Shown in pieces: positions 2,726-23,938 of a stretch of 24,613 nt of DNA. This stretch comes from a virus: IMG/VR virus record IMGVR_UViG_3300025769_000803, positions 1 through 24,613 of that record. One strand, written 5' to 3'. The stretch's first letter is position 1. Each line of letters starts with the position of its first letter. Below the pieces are notes generated by a model. It ran no database searches. It saw nothing but the letters and a program-made list of their open reading frames with translations, and was not told the DNA's origin. Position numbers and translations under genes: made by a program.

Positions 2726-2836
2726 TTACTTAGTAATGTAGATAAACCTGTCAAAAGGTGTATCATCTTTTTCTACGAATACTGTTCTAAGTTCTTCTAC
2801 TATAACAACAGTTCTTTCATCAGATGTACTTGGCAT
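2726..2836 (-). CDS. 36-residue conserved-looking phage protein
   Basis: A tiny reading frame (MPSTSDERTVVIVEELRTVF... ending FDRFIYITK) fills the gap between the repeat-rich fibre gene and the fibre-tail adaptor. Its ATG overlaps the TAA of the fibre gene as TAATG, and its TAA falls 11 bases before the next ATG. That is the same tight packing seen for the real genes here. The composition is strikingly acidic and beta-branched (ERTVVIVEELRTVFVE). I recall similar short proteins with ERTVxV repeats next to fibre-tail adaptors in marine phages, but have no database support. The function is unknown. A single amphipathic beta hairpin that packs on a neighbouring tail protein is one possibility. 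Confidence 0.6.
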   Translation of the reverse strand: MPSTSDERTVVIVEELRTVFVEKDDTPFDRFIYITK

Positions 2837-5523
2837 TAAGCAGCCCTCGAAATATAAACAGTTCTTGCTCTATCATAAGCATTCTTAAACTCTTCAAAGT
2901 TAAACCCATCTGTAGATAGTGTTATAGAACCTCTACCCACAGTAACTAACGGTAAGGTACTTAGTTGTACAGATGCGTTTATTACACCCTTTACTTCATC
3001 AGAAGCATTGAAAGCAGAGCTTGCAGAAGGCAAAGTTACACTAACGTTTATAGTTAGCGTACCTACTTGACAAGGACTTTCAAGCCTTCTTAGTACAGCT
3101 TCCTGTGATTCTACTCCACCAAACTGAACGGCTGTGCCAGCTTCTACACCCGTTACATCTACTACTAGGTTAGTTCCAACCTGACTAGATATACTTGTAA
3201 CTAATGTTACAGAGTTAACTTCAACGGAAGAGTCATTGATAGTAGATAAGTCACCTGTCTGGCCTTCAGAGCCTACACCTTGAAGTAGGTCTGTAGAGTT
3301 ACCAGATAAGTTTCCAACTTGTGTGGAAGTGCTTACATCATCTAAAGTTGATCCACCACCAGCAACAATTTGACCTACAGATACTTGAGAAGATACCGAC
3401 AGTGAGGGTGGTATAATTTCATCAATGTCAACTACTAAGTCAGAGACTTGTGATGTAGAAGTGACTGTCGTTAAAGTAGTAGATAGGTTAACTGATAGGT
3501 TATTAAAGGTTACACTTGAAGATACACCAGTTAAAACATCTGTTGTAAGAGAAACTAAATCTGTTACAGAGGCTTGAGAGTTTGTAGTATCAAGTATTAC
3601 AGAAGAAGATACTGACTTACCAACATCGTTTACTGAAGATGTAAAGTCTGCAGAAGGTAGTGTCTTATTGCTTGAGTGTACCTGAGTGACAGATGTTAAG
3701 GCTGCTACGCTAGATGTTGAGTCAAGAGTTTTACTGCTGCTAACTAAAGTCTCTTCTAAAGCCTGTACTTGAGCAGAAAATGAAACCCCTGTAGGAAATG
3801 CTGTAACATTTGAACTAAAGATAGCAGTTACACTATTAGCTGCTACACTAGTACTGACTAAATGATTTGATAAGTAAGGGCTTTCAAATACTGGTATGTC
3901 TGAAGTGGCGGCGGTAGAGCCATTTGAAGCGCTATTAGAAAAGTTAGACTGAGCATCAGCCCAATCTGAAGCAGGATTAACGTGCGCCCCCGGTATAGAA
4001 GAGCTAGGGTTTGATACTGATGTTCTTTGACTCCAAACCTTAGCACGTAGTGTATTACTGGGAACAGAAAGATTTACATTATGTAATAGACCGTCAAAGT
4101 ATCTTGTACTTGAACTAAACCCGGGGCTAGTACCAAGTGTGAAATCAAAAGAAGAAGAACTGTACCCTAGCCAAAATTTGTAAGAGCTGCTTGAGTAACT
4201 TCCATAGCTTACACTCATTAAAGAGTTCTCACTGTGAAGTAGTTGACCAGTTACAGCATTATGGACTTGTGCATACAGTGTCTGACCACTATTGTATACA
4301 GTAATCCTATACCAAACCTCCTTACTAAAGCTGTAATTTAAAGTAAAGTTTCTATATGTTTTTCTAAGTAATGAGGATATAAGCGTTAAGCCTACCTCTA
4401 TGGAACTTCCTTGTCTATATATGTGTAAGTCATTGTTATAACCACTGTTATTATAAGCAGGGTTTCTAGACTCAAACAAATACTGAATCTCTGTATCACT
4501 TGCAGAACTATCTACTTTAAATTCTAGACTAACTTTGACACTATCACCTGAGTATCTTGTTCCCCCTACAGAGGTGTAAATAACTCCATAAGTAGATAAG
4601 GATGAACCAGAGCGCGCTCTACCAGAGTAATATAGATTAGGCGTTAGAAAGTCACCTAAATTAACCGTTGCATTAACAGGTATGCCTACAAACGGTAAAT
4701 CGTTAACATCAACAGAAGATGACACTCCTGATAATGATACCTCGTCACTAACAAATACAACTAAAGTATTTACAGTAGCAGAGCTAGAAACGTTTACTAA
4801 GCTCTCATTTGAAGATGCAACTAAAGATAAGTCTGTTGCTGATAAGCTTGAGCTTAAAGAGGAAAGCGTTTCTGAGGATTCTGCATTAGTTTCAACAGAA
4901 GAAACACTTACTGTAGAGGAAACAGACGTTAGTTCACCTATCTCATCAGTTGTACCTACAAGAGAGCCTACTTGAGAAGTAGAAGTAACCTGATTAATCT
5001 CTACACTAGAAGATACAACAAGAGAGGGGCTAGTAACGTTACCAGTTACTGATACAGCTACAAGATGCTCTGATGGGCCTATCTGTGGAGTTCTTACTTG
5101 ACCTGTAGCAGATACAGATGTAACGGATTTGTTAGAACTTGTAGACGCACTAGGATCGTTTACTGACCCAGTTGAAGATACTGATGCAAGAGATTTGTTA
5201 GAACTTGTAGACCTTGTAATAGTGCCTACTTGACTTGCAGTAGATACAGAGTCTAATGTAGTTGAAACCCCAACTACTTGACTTAGTGTACCTAGTTGAC
5301 CTGTAGTAGAGGTAGTAGAAAGAGATACGTCTACTGTAGTTGAAAGAGACCCTTGTGTAACCTGAGAGGAAACATTTGAGATAGATTTAGTGGAACTATT
5401 AACGCCTACTACATCGTTATGTATTACTTGGCTCGCTACACCAGACAAACTAATAGACGATGAGACTACTACAATCCCATCGTCTGATAGTGGTGCTGAT
5501 GCGAGAGGACTAAAGCCTAGCAT
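2836..5523 (-). CDS. Repeat-rich giant fibre protein with central lectin-like domain
   Basis: An 895-residue protein with an unusually Ser/Thr/Val-rich sequence. It starts with MLGFSPLASAPLSDDG, an N-terminal tag I associate with marine phage fibre or virion proteins. Residues about 20-280 and 515-860 are built from degenerate units of about 22 residues with a core like L-x-x-V-S-S-x-x-Q-V-G-x-L. At about 284-490 a different, Tyr/Ser-rich segment interrupts the repeats; SLEFKV...FESRN, WYRITVY and RYFDGLLHNV look like a concanavalin/LamG-type jelly roll. The C-terminus (GFNFEEFKNAYDRARTVYISRAA) is non-repetitive, helical and basic. A likely reading is a fibrous beta-repeat stalk carrying a carbohydrate-binding knob. 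It sits between the other fibres and the tail-adaptor genes. No catalytic motif or signal peptide is visible. Confidence 0.6.
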   Translation of the reverse strand: MLGFSPLASAPLSDDGIVVVSSSISLSGVASQVIHNDVVGVNSSTKSISNVSSQVTQGSLSTTVDVSLSTTSTTGQLGTLSQVVGVSTTLDSVSTASQVGTITRSTSSNKSLASVSSTGSVNDPSASTSSNKSVTSVSATGQVRTPQIGPSEHLVAVSVTGNVTSPSLVVSSSVEINQVTSTSQVGSLVGTTDEIGELTSVSSTVSVSSVETNAESSETLSSLSSSLSATDLSLVASSNESLVNVSSSATVNTLVVFVSDEVSLSGVSSSVDVNDLPFVGIPVNATVNLGDFLTPNLYYSGRARSGSSLSTYGVIYTSVGGTRYSGDSVKVSLEFKVDSSASDTEIQYLFESRNPAYNNSGYNNDLHIYRQGSSIEVGLTLISSLLRKTYRNFTLNYSFSKEVWYRITVYNSGQTLYAQVHNAVTGQLLHSENSLMSVSYGSYSSSSYKFWLGYSSSSFDFTLGTSPGFSSSTRYFDGLLHNVNLSVPSNTLRAKVWSQRTSVSNPSSSIPGAHVNPASDWADAQSNFSNSASNGSTAATSDIPVFESPYLSNHLVSTSVAANSVTAIFSSNVTAFPTGVSFSAQVQALEETLVSSSKTLDSTSSVAALTSVTQVHSSNKTLPSADFTSSVNDVGKSVSSSVILDTTNSQASVTDLVSLTTDVLTGVSSSVTFNNLSVNLSTTLTTVTSTSQVSDLVVDIDEIIPPSLSVSSQVSVGQIVAGGGSTLDDVSTSTQVGNLSGNSTDLLQGVGSEGQTGDLSTINDSSVEVNSVTLVTSISSQVGTNLVVDVTGVEAGTAVQFGGVESQEAVLRRLESPCQVGTLTINVSVTLPSASSAFNASDEVKGVINASVQLSTLPLVTVGRGSITLSTDGFNFEEFKNAYDRARTVYISRAA
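5126..5212 (-). repeat. Near-identical 66-bp tandem unit within the repeat fibre gene
   Basis: A 21-base sequence is repeated exactly at 5126-5146 and 5192-5212. The offset is 66 bases, which is 22 codons, so the reading frame is kept. Both copies encode T-S-S-N-K-S. This is the most recent-looking pair among the otherwise diverged 22-residue repeats. It shows that the protein grows by in-frame unit duplication. Confidence 0.8.
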
Positions 5524-9163: not shown

Positions 9164-9519
9164 TCAATTAAACTCCAAGCCTGATTAACCTCATCCCACT
9201 CGTAATCATTGCCATCTGAGGGGTATGCTACTGGCGGTTGCCACTGACAGGTTTCTTCATCTAGCGTCCAAGAAACAAACGGGCGAGGCGCTAAGAAAGC
9301 ATTTCGAGCAGCATCATAAGAATACCCAACGCCAGCAAAGTTCTTTCTAAAGTTGCTATTGTAGCTTGTTTGCTTCCAAGAGCCGCCGAATAGTTGCTCA
9401 CAAAAGCTAACGCCTAAAGCCTCTTGCTCAACACCGTTCTCATCAAGCAAAACATCGTTTGCGACTACGATTACTCGTTGAACAATTCTCTGATCATTTA
9501 TCTCTGCAAAATGTGCCAT
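9160..9519 (-). CDS. Small conserved marine-phage fibre-associated protein
   Basis: A 119-residue protein starting MAHFAEINDQRIVQRVIVVA. It has the motifs FCEQLFGGSWKQTSYN, FRKNFAGVGYSYD, FVSWTLDEETCQW and YEWDEVNQAW. I recall this set from a protein that is very common in cyanophages and other marine phages, always among tail or fibre genes. Its molecular function has not been established to my knowledge. The repeated W and Y turns suggest a compact beta domain. The start overlaps the stop of the glycine-rich gene as TGATG, and its own stop overlaps the next start as ATGA, so it lies inside a coupled fibre operon. A role as fibre chaperone or capping subunit is a guess. Confidence 0.65.
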   Translation of the reverse strand: MAHFAEINDQRIVQRVIVVANDVLLDENGVEQEALGVSFCEQLFGGSWKQTSYNSNFRKNFAGVGYSYDAARNAFLAPRPFVSWTLDEETCQWQPPVAYPSDGNDYEWDEVNQAWSLIE

Positions 9520-10529
9520 CAGAAAGTAATGCTCCCTGATCCAGTAAATTTGTAAATATTATAATCACCGTTTTGTGAGGTAACACATCCCGAAACAGTA
9601 TCTCCAATAGTGTAATCAGATGAAGCAGTACCGTTTAAATTAGAAGCAATTGAGGTTGTTCGTAGTATAACAACACCCGAGCCTCCGTTACCTCCATTTC
9701 TGGCTGACGCAGCGCCACCGCCACCACCAGTGTATTGAGTGCCAGATTGAGGATCTTCCACATTATTTCCATAAGTTCCATCGCCGCCACCGCCTTGACC
9801 GCCAGAACCTCTAGTATCAGCGCCTCGACCGCCGCCTCCACCTGCATAATAGGTAGAAGTACCAGTAATACTGCTAGTTAATCCATCACCACCAGTACCA
9901 CCTATTTTTGTGTTAGAGGGGGGTGCAGTACCCGCTTGACCAGCGCCACCGCCGCCTCCACCTGCATATCCACCAGAGCCACCATTACCTTGGGAACCAT
10001 CATTACCCTGACCAGATGTACCAGATCCAGCCGTCCAATTTAAATGTGCAGCACCACCACCAGATCCACCATCTAAACCAACAGAGCCACCTCCACCACT
10101 ATTTGTACCAGCCCCACCACCGCCGCCAACAGCGGTAGTAAAAGATGAACCGCCACCAGTTATGGATGAATTACCCCCATTTCCTCCTTGCCCTCTGCCC
10201 GAAGGCCCAGAGCTTGTAGTTCCCCCAGAACCGCCAGAACCTACAGTAATTGTGTAAGTAGACCCTAAAGATAAATTTTGGTTAGTGTAAGAAACAAATC
10301 CACCCGCACCACCGCCTCCAGCGCCTCGACCATTACTGTCACCAACATAGCTATTTCGCCCACCACCGCCGCCGCCAGCTACAATTAGAAGGTCTGCTGT
10401 TACAACTATAGAAGGCCAGTTATCGGCCCTTTTTTCATCAGCAATGTTATTAGTGGAAAAAATTCCAGAAGCAGATGCTCCGCTTACTGAAGACTTTTTG
10501 CCAATAACTGATGAATTATAACGCTGCAC
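9519..10529 (-). CDS. Glycine-rich tail-fibre adhesin
   Basis: A 336-residue protein counted from a GTG at 10529-10527 (first residues M-Q-R-Y-N-S-S-V-I-G-K-K). I prefer this start because GAGGAG lies 8 bases ahead of it and it overlaps the upstream TAG as TAGTG. The longer reading from an ATG at 10553 has no ribosome site. Residues about 50-290 contain at least ten runs of four or more glycines separated by short Ser/Thr/Asn segments. This is the pattern of polyglycine-II helix adhesins such as the S16 gp38 tip. It opens with DLLIVAGGGGGGR and closes with SGVVILR, both typical of such phage fibres, then a small beta tail ending FTGSGSITF. Probable role: receptor recognition at a fibre tip, with variable loops between glycine helices. 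Confidence 0.75.
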   Translation of the reverse strand: MQRYNSSVIGKKSSVSGASASGIFSTNNIADEKRADNWPSIVVTADLLIVAGGGGGGRNSYVGDSNGRGAGGGGAGGFVSYTNQNLSLGSTYTITVGSGGSGGTTSSGPSGRGQGGNGGNSSITGGGSSFTTAVGGGGGAGTNSGGGGSVGLDGGSGGGAAHLNWTAGSGTSGQGNDGSQGNGGSGGYAGGGGGGAGQAGTAPPSNTKIGGTGGDGLTSSITGTSTYYAGGGGGRGADTRGSGGQGGGGDGTYGNNVEDPQSGTQYTGGGGGAASARNGGNGGSGVVILRTTSIASNLNGTASSDYTIGDTVSGCVTSQNGDYNIYKFTGSGSITF

Positions 10530-10894
10530 TAGCTGATCTCCTCGTAGGAACATACAGCATTTACATCGGCAGCAGTCGAAGGTGTAATTTGTAACGCATC
10601 GCCTTCTTCTAAATAAATTGCTTTAGATAAAACATCTAAAGATGCATCCGCTGGAATTACTAAAGTAGACGCTATAAAATAAGAGTTAGACGAACGTAAA
10701 ATAGAAACACTTACCTCTACGTTACTTGTTCCGTCTACGTTAGAAATTAAGAGAGCGTTCACTTTAAATACTTTGTTGGAACTAGCAGAATTAGCAACAA
10801 TAGAAGTTGCAGTGTTATCCGTAAGATCCGAGGATTTTAAAACCGCCGTTTTACCAGTAATGGTAGCGACATTAACTATGTTAGGTGCTGTCAT
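10529..10894 (-). CDS. Small beta-sandwich virion protein (first of two related copies)
   Basis: A 121-residue protein starting MTAPNIVNVATITGKTAVLK. It has a near-perfect ribosome site (GGAGGT, 6 bases before the ATG) placed inside the end of the upstream fibre gene. It reads as a single eight-strand beta sandwich: FKVNALLISNVDG, VEVSVSILRSS, FIASTLVIPADASLDVLSK, then YLEEGDALQITPS. The order of strands and the closing L-x-x-G-D-x-I/L-x-V/I-T-P-S motif are shared with the 119-residue protein at 23292-23651. That suggests two diverged paralogues. The family is familiar from marine phage structural regions, probably as a head-fibre, decoration or fibre-base protein. The exact role is unknown. 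It is translationally coupled to the adhesin that follows. Confidence 0.55.
   Translation of the reverse strand: MTAPNIVNVATITGKTAVLKSSDLTDNTATSIVANSASSNKVFKVNALLISNVDGTSNVEVSVSILRSSNSYFIASTLVIPADASLDVLSKAIYLEEGDALQITPSTAADVNAVCSYEEIS
10538..10543 (-). promoter_or_regulatory. Ribosome binding site fixing the GTG start of the glycine-rich adhesin
   Basis: GAGGAG on the minus strand lies inside the last codons of the preceding gene (…TAC GAG GAG ATC AGC TAG). It is exactly 8 bases before the GTG at 10529. No comparable sequence precedes the ATG at 10553, which decides for the shorter protein. Confidence 0.65.
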
Positions 10895-10897
10895 ATT

Positions 10898-12322
10898 TTA
10901 ACCTCCAAATACGATAGCCATAGCAATCGCCTTTCCTGTGCTAATTCCGCTTGAGGGTGCGGCAGCAAACTCTAACGCTGTAGCTCCGCTATTCATTTGT
11001 AAGATTTGACCCGCTGTGCCTAAGCTTGAGGGCGTGTCAGTGAAATCTAAAATACTGTCATTTGCCAATGAACCGTGTTCAACCACCTCAACCACATCGC
11101 CAGAAGCAAAAGCTGAAAAGCCTGTGATCGAAGTGCCGTTGCTTGCTGTGAAATCTACGCCGCCGCCTCTAAGCTTAACGCCGTTCTTGAAGACCGCTAC
11201 TTTATCAGGAGTGTAGTCTACTGTAACCGAAGTTGCCCCTGTCGTGACCGTAGGAAACGTACTGGCATACGGGCTGGCAAACGGTGCGCCATATTCGACA
11301 ACTTCCACAACATCGCCTACAGCCGTTGCGCTAATAGTGATCTGCGTATCAGTAGCCGTAACTTCGCTGTCTTGCAGCTTAACGCCGTTGAGAAACACTG
11401 CAATGTTAGCCGCTTTCCAAGAGCCAGTGAAAACAGTTGTACCTGCAGAAGAAACTACAGTTTTCGTAGTAGTGATGGGTACTAAAGAGCCGCCAGAAGA
11501 ACTGCCAGAGCTACCACTAGCCGTAACAACGCCAGAACCATCTATAGATAAACCTGTACCGATCTTAATACCGCCAAGCGTAGAGCTAGAGGCAGTAGGC
11601 AAAGTGTAGTTGTTAGCGCTGGTAGCCACCCCATCTAGCTTTGTCTTGTCGGCTGATGACATAAGGCCATCGGCTGATGTCGTGGCGTTGGAGTAGGTTG
11701 TACCACCCATAGATACAGCGCCACCCATACCGCTGTGATTAGCGCAGTAGTAGTATAATGCTGGGGCGTCTTGCTCTAGCTTGACCTCAATAATAGCACC
11801 CGCACTACCCGCCGTACCTATACTCGTAATGCCTGTAGTGAACTGAGTTCCGCTGTTGTGAGTGCCATCTGAGGTGGTACTAAAGCGTAGAGGGTGACTA
11901 GCATTTGTGCTATCAGAAACATCAAAGCGGTAGGTAACAGACGGTACTAAAGTAATCGTTTGATTAGCAGTACCATCAATCAGGTAATTACCACCCGAAA
12001 CAGTAACCGTAATATCAGCATAAAGCAGATCAAGATCATCTGCAGAAGCACTGATAAAGACCTTGGCGCTACCAGATAAACTAAGTAACTGACCAGTGCT
12101 AGAGCTAGTTAAAGTCCTAGAAGTTAAGCTAGGGCCACTACTATCGTATACTGCAGTTCCTACTTCCCAAGCACTGCCATCTTCAATCACATAACGTAGA
12201 GTATGTCCATTTAAAGAAGTAGGTACTACTTGAAACCCAGACTCTGCAGAGCCTAAGCTTATAGTAGTACCTTGACCAGTAGTAGATGTACTGACTTTTA
12301 CACGATCAGCAAACTTTGCCAT
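10898..12322 (-). CDS. Tail fibre with amicyanin-like domain and tandem beta repeats
   Basis: A 474-residue modular protein. Residues 1-95 form a fibre base (MAKFADRVKVSTSTTGQGTT, then a strand-rich segment ending AKVFISASADD). Residues about 100-205 read as a cupredoxin fold. H143 lies in an SHPLRF strand, and C193, H196 and M199 in YYYCANHSGMGG reproduce the amicyanin C-x2-H-x2-M copper loop. A short coiled or collagen-like linker follows (SADGLMSSADKTKLDGV). Two related units at about 295-346 and 367-418 each contain VAVF-NGVKL and GDVVEVVE. The C-terminal DTPSSLGTAGQILQMNSGA resembles the N-terminal TSGQ-L-GSG module of the two following fibres. The role is probably structural. Whether it binds copper is unknown. 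Confidence 0.65.
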   Translation of the reverse strand: MAKFADRVKVSTSTTGQGTTISLGSAESGFQVVPTSLNGHTLRYVIEDGSAWEVGTAVYDSSGPSLTSRTLTSSSTGQLLSLSGSAKVFISASADDLDLLYADITVTVSGGNYLIDGTANQTITLVPSVTYRFDVSDSTNASHPLRFSTTSDGTHNSGTQFTTGITSIGTAGSAGAIIEVKLEQDAPALYYYCANHSGMGGAVSMGGTTYSNATTSADGLMSSADKTKLDGVATSANNYTLPTASSSTLGGIKIGTGLSIDGSGVVTASGSSGSSSGGSLVPITTTKTVVSSAGTTVFTGSWKAANIAVFLNGVKLQDSEVTATDTQITISATAVGDVVEVVEYGAPFASPYASTFPTVTTGATSVTVDYTPDKVAVFKNGVKLRGGGVDFTASNGTSITGFSAFASGDVVEVVEHGSLANDSILDFTDTPSSLGTAGQILQMNSGATALEFAAAPSSGISTGKAIAMAIVFGG

Positions 12323-23291: not shown

Positions 23292-23651
23292 TTACCCTAT
23301 AGGCACAAAGGTTTCTGTTACTGTAATGATTGTATCTATATGTCCAGATCCACTAGGAGTAACCCTAATTTCATCACCTGCTTGTAATACCAAATCTATT
23401 TCATTAAACGTTACATAATCACCAGCATTAATAGACTTACCCTTTAGAAAATGAGATGTGTAAGTATCAGCCAATACATACCACTCTACTTCAACAGTAT
23501 TAGTAGAGCCACCACCATTAACTATATGGATAAAGGTAATCTCAGCTACACAATTAGCAGGACAAGTGTAGACAGTCTCTGCACTTGTACCTGTATTATG
23601 CCCATAAACAGACTTAATACGTGCTGGTTTACCTTGATTTACAAAAGACAT
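23292..23651 (-). CDS. Small beta-sandwich virion protein (second of two related copies)
   Basis: A 119-residue protein starting MSFVNQGKPARIKSVYGHNT. The strands AETVYTCPANCVAEITFIHI, VEVEWYVLAD, SHFLKGKSINAGDYVTFNEI, LVLQAGDEIRVTPSGSG and ITVTETFVPIG follow each other as in a single beta sandwich. The order and the closing L-x-A-G-D-E-I-R-V-T-P-S motif match the 121-residue protein at 10529-10894, so the two are probably distant paralogues. C30 and C34 in TCPANC could form a disulfide or a metal site. Similar small proteins in marine phages are found among structural genes. This one is upstream of the terminases, away from the fibres, and might be a head-fibre or decoration protein. The ATG overlaps the previous stop as TAATG. 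Confidence 0.5.
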   Translation of the reverse strand: MSFVNQGKPARIKSVYGHNTGTSAETVYTCPANCVAEITFIHIVNGGGSTNTVEVEWYVLADTYTSHFLKGKSINAGDYVTFNEIDLVLQAGDEIRVTPSGSGHIDTIITVTETFVPIG

Positions 23652-23938
23652 TAGCTGGTCTTAACTTTTCTTGTACCTGCTTGAGAAGGCTTATTAGATG
23701 CACCACAGGCTAAACCACCGTGAGCATAACCCATCTTTTTCTTTTTAGCCATACCACCATACATATAGCCCATCTTAGCTGCTACTTCTGGTGCTTTCTT
23801 TTTAAGTGCTGCCATACCAGCATTCATTGGTTTCTTTCCCATATCTCCACCTTTTGCCATCCCTACTTTATGATAACCTGTACCCCCACAATGAGAGCAT
23901 CCCTTACCTTTACACTTTGGACACATTTTCTTTGCCAT
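23651..23938 (-). CDS. Small basic zinc-finger protein with Gly/Met/Lys tail
   Basis: A 95-residue protein, MAKKMCPKCKGKGCSHCGGT... Cysteines 6, 9, 14 and 17 form two CxxC pairs with the C-x-x-C-x-G-x-G and C-G-G-T-G turns of a DnaJ-type zinc finger. The rest is a low-complexity basic tail with repeated K-V-G-M-A-K-G-G, M-G-Y-M-Y-G-G and M-A-K-K-K-K-M-G-Y segments. It has no predicted membrane helix. I recall this kind of protein near terminase genes of marine phages, with no established function. Nucleic-acid binding is likely from the charge and zinc finger. It is coupled by TAATG to the 72-residue gene before it and to the beta-sandwich gene after it. An AGGA site precedes the start. Confidence 0.65.
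   Translation of the reverse strand: MAKKMCPKCKGKGCSHCGGTGYHKVGMAKGGDMGKKPMNAGMAALKKKAPEVAAKMGYMYGGMAKKKKMGYAHGGLACGASNKPSQAGTRKVKTS

Follow-up and report, generated by a model that had tools for sequence, protein, structure and literature searches.

A cupredoxin-like domain with a complete predicted type 1 copper ligand set as an exchangeable cassette in a phage tail fibre

The fibre gene and the anatomy of its product

A phage tail fibre that contains a histidine, a cysteine, a second histidine and a methionine spaced as in a blue-copper protein raises the question of whether a virion protein holds a metal, which metal this would be, and what it would do there. The fibre gene lies in a virus record of 24613 bases, which we call the window. 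Translation of the minus-strand open reading frame confirmed all four residues that an earlier note on this DNA had read from it (H143, C193, H196 and M199; Table 1). C193 is the sole cysteine of the 474-aa protein, and the histidines are at positions 40, 143, 155, 196 and 416. From the evidence presented below, a cupredoxin-like domain with all four ligands of a type 1 copper site is probably present in the fibre as an exchangeable cassette, and we predict it to be a copper-binding, metal-stabilised module.

The gene order of the window (terminase, portal, major head protein, a 145-aa protein, fibre and tail proteins) is that of Roseobacter phage CRP-603, where the position of the fibre gene is held by gp58, a ‘putative tail fiber protein’. 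The window terminase shares 84% identity with the CRP-603 enzyme and, over 91% of the query, 73% with that of Puniceispirillum phage HMO-2011. Near the tail genes we also noted two minus-strand open reading frames, one serine-rich, repetitive and of 895 aa (2836-5523) and the other glycine-rich and of 344 aa (9519-10553). A 95-aa frame on the same strand (23651-23938) starts with MAKKMCPKCKGKGCSHCGGTG, which we take to be a CxxCxGxG zinc-finger-like motif, and has AKGG/AKKK stretches further on.

By blastp over the fetched open reading frames, the N-terminal module of the fibre was found also in fibres without the cupredoxin-like domain, and it is taken here as the end that would anchor the protein to the virion. 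The cupredoxin-like domain is followed by a match to the phage head fibre family PF11133, two similar beta repeats and a tail segment recognised in the translation. The structure prediction for the full-length fibre (pLDDT 51.5) gives little information on how these domains are placed.

Table 1. Coordinates of the fibre gene and its parts in the window, and of the module that replaces the domain in an orthologous fibre (L013)
Feature	Position	Strand	Basis
Fibre protein gene, 474 aa	10898..12322	minus	Open reading frame and translation; PHROG tail-fibre families; gene-order position
N-terminal module, residues 1-98	12029..12322	minus	blastp over fetched open reading frames
Cupredoxin-like domain (predicted), residues 100-209	11696..12025	minus	AlphaFold2 model, fold matches, profile matches
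H143 codon, predicted first ligand	11894..11896	minus	Translation; conservation
C193 codon, predicted thiolate ligand	11744..11746	minus	Translation; conservation
H196 codon, predicted second His ligand	11735..11737	minus	Translation; conservation
M199 codon, predicted axial ligand	11726..11728	minus	Translation; conservation; in no search seed
PF11133 phage head fibre match, residues 212-259	11546..11689	minus	35.9 bits, cut-off 24.6
Two similar beta repeats (NGVKL...GDVVEVVE), residues about 287-417	11072..11464	minus	Translation; secondary structure of poor full-length model; boundaries set by eye
51-aa replacement module	L013 5286-5438		

Predicted fold and kinship to known cupredoxins

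An AlphaFold2 model of residues 100-209, built with a 40-row alignment, has a pLDDT of 91.4 and nine strands. In the numbering of the model, H49 stands just ahead of strand 51-54, C99 is the end of strand 95-99 and M105 comes ahead of strand 106-111, and this order of ligands and strands is the one seen in cupredoxins. When the model was compared with solved structures by Foldseek, no match reached E <= 0.001. The ranks from 1 to 11 were all occupied by copper proteins or a CuA domain. At the top stood a copper nitrite reductase from Hyphomicrobium (E 0.005), rusticyanin and 5u7n, a CuA domain into which an amicyanin loop has been engineered; antibody chains were interspersed from rank 13, and amicyanin (4p5r) appeared at rank 36 (E 0.07). 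VIA-align matched rusticyanin (2cal, Z 8.5 over 98 residues) and nitrite reductase (2dv6, Z 8.0), followed by auracyanin A (Z 7.3), laccases, cytochrome oxidase chains and a purple cupredoxin (5fc9, Z 6.7); because Z below 8 may reflect only a common arrangement, and Z of about 8 is reached also without clear matches, the fold match alone is no proof. The predicted model and the fold matches point with moderate strength to a Greek-key beta sandwich of about 100 aa, and residues 100-209 very probably adopt a cupredoxin fold.

These results bear on the proposal of the earlier note that the copper ligand set is amicyanin-like, for which it suggested superposing a structure prediction on amicyanin. 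The cupredoxin-like fold (with a confident model), the ligand set and the C-x2-H-x2-M spacing stand, the last equal in loop length to amicyanin and the usual one among relatives of the domain. A special kinship to amicyanin is not upheld, given that rusticyanin, the nitrite reductase domain and auracyanin rank above it by fold and cyanobacterial plastocyanin is the best match by sequence. Rusticyanin and the N-terminal domain of the three-domain nitrite reductase, although the best fold matches, are secreted or enzyme-bound and have longer ligand loops than the phage domain, and the rusticyanin chain is itself longer (about 151-155 residues).

Against the PF00127 (Copper-bind) model the window domain scores 12.8 bits, below the cut-off of 21.2, and on its sequence we would class the window copy as cupredoxin-like and not as a member of PF00127. 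Eight of 40 members matched this family at E <= 1 (best E 0.014), unrelated Pfam families had lower E-values in some of the same 40 (purple acid phosphatase 0.00027, carbohydrate-binding 0.00056, gp45 clamp 0.0022), and in a Pfam search with 10 divergent members none hit PF00127 at E <= 1. A PDB search with the single window sequence returned nothing useful. With a first, narrower profile the best PDB matches were antibody heavy chains over the YYCA..H stretch (E 0.011), and with a wider profile cyanobacterial plastocyanins were best (E 0.08) and antibodies next (0.1); in the plastocyanin alignment H, C and H are aligned and Met lies outside.

A search of 13 genomes that carry a domain copy gave above-cut-off PF00127 matches in nine, and 13 of the 14 PF00127 loci, namely those whose loop was found by a motif pattern, were used for the comparison. 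With hhalign, the phage profile A3 scored 53.0 (probability 96) against four PF00127-passing Bacteroidetes domains, which come from long open reading frames (825-1179 aa) in three genomes, and 30.0 (probability 52) against nine classical cupredoxins including plastocyanins from Prochlorococcus genomes, while 40 column shuffles gave maxima of 16.8 and 16.4, respectively. H, C, H and M are in register in both alignments, in the classical case under a relaxed setting and with Met preceded by a gap of two columns; under default settings the local alignment to the classical cupredoxins covers the first His only. The domain thus appears remotely akin to plastocyanin-type domains. It shares with the plastocyanin/azurin family the kinds and order of the ligands, their register and the beta sandwich, but it is part of a long virion protein and has Pro after the first His in 79 of 84 copies, where that family usually has Asn. 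Cyanophages also encode a blue-copper protein of their own, the plastocyanin petE, but PMC2984593 presents it as a photosynthesis gene rather than a component of the virion.

Conservation of the four predicted ligands

Relatives of the domain were collected in two harvests. The first gave 199 viral-contig stretches encoding fibre relatives, of which the best 80 were kept, and the second gave at least 591 domain-profile relatives among 600 candidates listed, of which again the best 80 were kept. Some of the search seeds were patterns with a YYC..H loop or an HP motif, and since the searches were motif-seeded in this way the conservation of H143, C193 and H196 is inflated; M199 was in none of the seeds. 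In the first count, which includes the best 80 per search, C193 and H196 are present in all 197 copies covering the site and H143 and M199 in 194; the exceptions, all of a single D/L type, come from three contigs that are nearly identical. After the addition of phage records and a second round (best 80 per search), 222 of 230 copies have the His-Cys-His-Met set (HCHM), three have DCHL, one KGTL and one EGTL, and three are uncovered at the site, so that the conservation proposed by the earlier note as a check was borne out. The set is nearly always intact; the covered losses affect either all four ligands (two copies) or two of them (three copies), and none of the 227 site-covering copies has lost exactly one. 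KGTL and EGTL occur in S-CAM22 and P-SSM7, in baseplate proteins that are related to each other, and the loss of all four ligands in these phages is probably one event.

To judge the columns against each other, 110 representatives at 80% identity were taken, with degenerate copies counted, and 102 columns were ranked. C193, H196 and M199 (107/108 each) and H143 (107/110) are the four most conserved, and the next is G200 (103/108). The same four are the only invariant columns of an 84-copy alignment, a set that is partly circular because it consists of the window and 83 of the 110 representatives, and three of the 27 omitted are the degenerate ones. Non-isolate copies that lack a given seed, although each may have been recovered via the other, have HCHM in 71 of 72 cases without the LYYYC[AT]N seed (one cut off) and in 49 of 53 without the HP motif (three DCHL and one cut off).

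A tblastn with the whole domain, in which no motif pattern served as seed, led to 25 phage records that form an unseeded set. HCHM is present in 28 of their 32 copies, and the remaining four are all second copies within large structural proteins. Among these second copies, the alignment ends ahead of the ligand loop in Syn1 and P-SSM4, and no cysteine is seen at the loop, when read by eye, in P-SSM4, P-SSM7 and S-CAM22. Over the 27 unseeded isolate representatives, degenerate ones included, F133 leads (26/27), C193, H196 and M199 hold ranks 2-4 (24/25) and H143 is at rank 10 of 93 columns (24/27). The succession His...Cys...His...Met that marks a cupredoxin is found in order and conserved.

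Distribution, cassette exchange and the nature of the site

By tblastn the window domain matched 69 phage records, whose names refer to Synechococcus, Prochlorococcus, cyanophage, Pelagibacter, Methylophilales or marine phages, with two others from seawater or plankton samples; no Roseobacter or Puniceispirillum phage was among these 69. The P-SSM2 copy as query matched 50 records with names of the same kind. Another copy matched 116, just 44 of them over 80% of its length, and many S-RIM2 records within the 116 matched only its first 48 residues. A copy of the gp9-connector type matched 335 records, one of which is an Actinomycetia phage and the others by name Synechococcus, cyanophage, Prochlorococcus, marine and Pelagibacter phages and one uncultured. 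PHROG families matched by the domain are of the tail-fibre, baseplate-wedge, gp9-connector and virion-structural kinds, plus one of unknown function. The domain is found in fibres, baseplate wedges and connectors, and its carriers are almost only marine phages. Thirty genome contigs also have a copy, part of which are perhaps viral. In Bacteroidetes genomes (L082, L097 and L098) we noted open frames, no shorter than 3864-4103 aa, that have one intact copy each, and these frames look cellular.

In two close orthologues of the window fibre (L013 and L014) a 51-aa module takes the place of the domain between flanks that are 70% and 89% identical to the window fibre (blastp), and the same module occurs in L018-L020. 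The cupredoxin-like domain, which lies between the N-terminal module and the distal shaft, is an exchangeable cassette, and as it is replaced in close orthologues it is dispensable for building such a fibre. Stabilisation of the fibre, one of the roles suggested by the earlier note, is possible, but the domain is not required for fibre building. Alignment of 53 distinct relatives of the 51-aa module gave nine invariant columns, four of which are His (positions 19, 24, 26 and 35), with His 24 and His 26 forming HxH; this search was seeded, and His is kept at each of the four positions also in those sequences (39 to 47, depending on the position) that lack the exact seed there. The module is possibly another metal module, and it is suggestive that two putative metal modules trade places in one fibre.

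We regard a real metal site in the domain as likely, and copper as the probable metal in it because the Cys-His-His-Met set is characteristic of type 1 copper. That set speaks against the best-surviving alternative, a cupredoxin fold that holds zinc, iron, nickel or a mixture and purely stiffens the fibre, which is unlikely but finds some precedent: T4 gp37 is stated, and the fibre of Alteromonas phage R22Y predicted, to hold iron via HxH motifs, for which a Trojan-horse role is proposed (PMC11705849), and the swapped-in cassette has its four invariant histidines. The window fibre would resemble these iron fibres in having a metal site in a fibre, but it has no HxH and uses other ligands. Retention of the four residues for folding or trimer contacts, with no metal in life, is improbable. 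It would accommodate the DCHL copies of the three contigs, yet over the 110 representatives the four residues are kept above every other column, they are kept across proteins of differing architecture, and the two whole-domain-aligned copies without a site have lost all four.

The copper reading leaves the role of the metal to be considered. The host cytoplasm is copper-poor, and the copper would most likely be acquired by the assembled virion outside it. The bound metal would then lock the ligand loops, and a structural or adhesive role would suit a fibre better than electron transfer. We therefore propose, tentatively, that the domain, stabilised by its metal, serves adhesion or stability at the cell surface and does not act as an electron carrier. 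A redox-active copper domain, involved in host-surface sensing, electron exchange or oxidant detoxification, seems distinctly improbable, since no partner redox centre was noticed in the fibre and the domain is also found on Pelagibacter and Methylophilales phages, even if type 1 sites elsewhere carry electrons and many carrier phages infect cyanobacteria. Least probable, and rejected, is an immunoglobulin V-set domain (PF07686) with YYC as its cysteine motif: immunoglobulin-like domains are known on phage structural proteins, a P-HM2 homologue is so annotated and antibody chains recur in the searches above, but an immunoglobulin disulfide requires two cysteines where 219 of 230 copies have one (six have two and five none), such a domain would have no reason to keep H143, H196 and M199, and plastocyanins lead with the wider profile and copper proteins by fold.

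If copper is bound by the cupredoxin-like domain, the marine virions of cyanophages, pelagiphages and others would repeatedly use a blue-copper domain in their construction, in tail fibres, baseplate wedges and gp9-like connectors. In that case copper would also join the trace metals that phage fibres are proposed to carry and to use in reaching their hosts. Given that the predicted metal ligands rank among the best-conserved positions in the relatives of the domain, copper may be present in parts of many ocean virus particles. A far more speculative extension, which we consider rather unlikely, is that one and the same site in orthologous fibres is filled by a type 1 copper domain in some phages and by a four-histidine HxH module in others, that phages swap the two to suit host metal-uptake surfaces or metal supply, and that ocean phage particles form a pool of protein-bound copper, with the metal used in attachment. 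A literature search, with preprints outside its coverage, returned no recognisable description of a cupredoxin-like virion domain, in line with the earlier note, which took such domains of marine phages to be uncharacterised. The isolates that bear the domain are a set for a direct test of the copper proposal, and the domain offers a lead for the PHROG families that match it, including phrog_27200, which is without known function.

Two observations concern individual carriers. In L211, L213 and L214, gp7-like baseplate proteins have one intact and one site-less copy each, and the adjoining gp9-like connector ends in a further intact copy. The P-HM2 homologue PHM2_106 (L209) bears the public annotation ‘contains PF07686 domain’; our finding questions this immunoglobulin label, which may have arisen because the YYC motif was misread.
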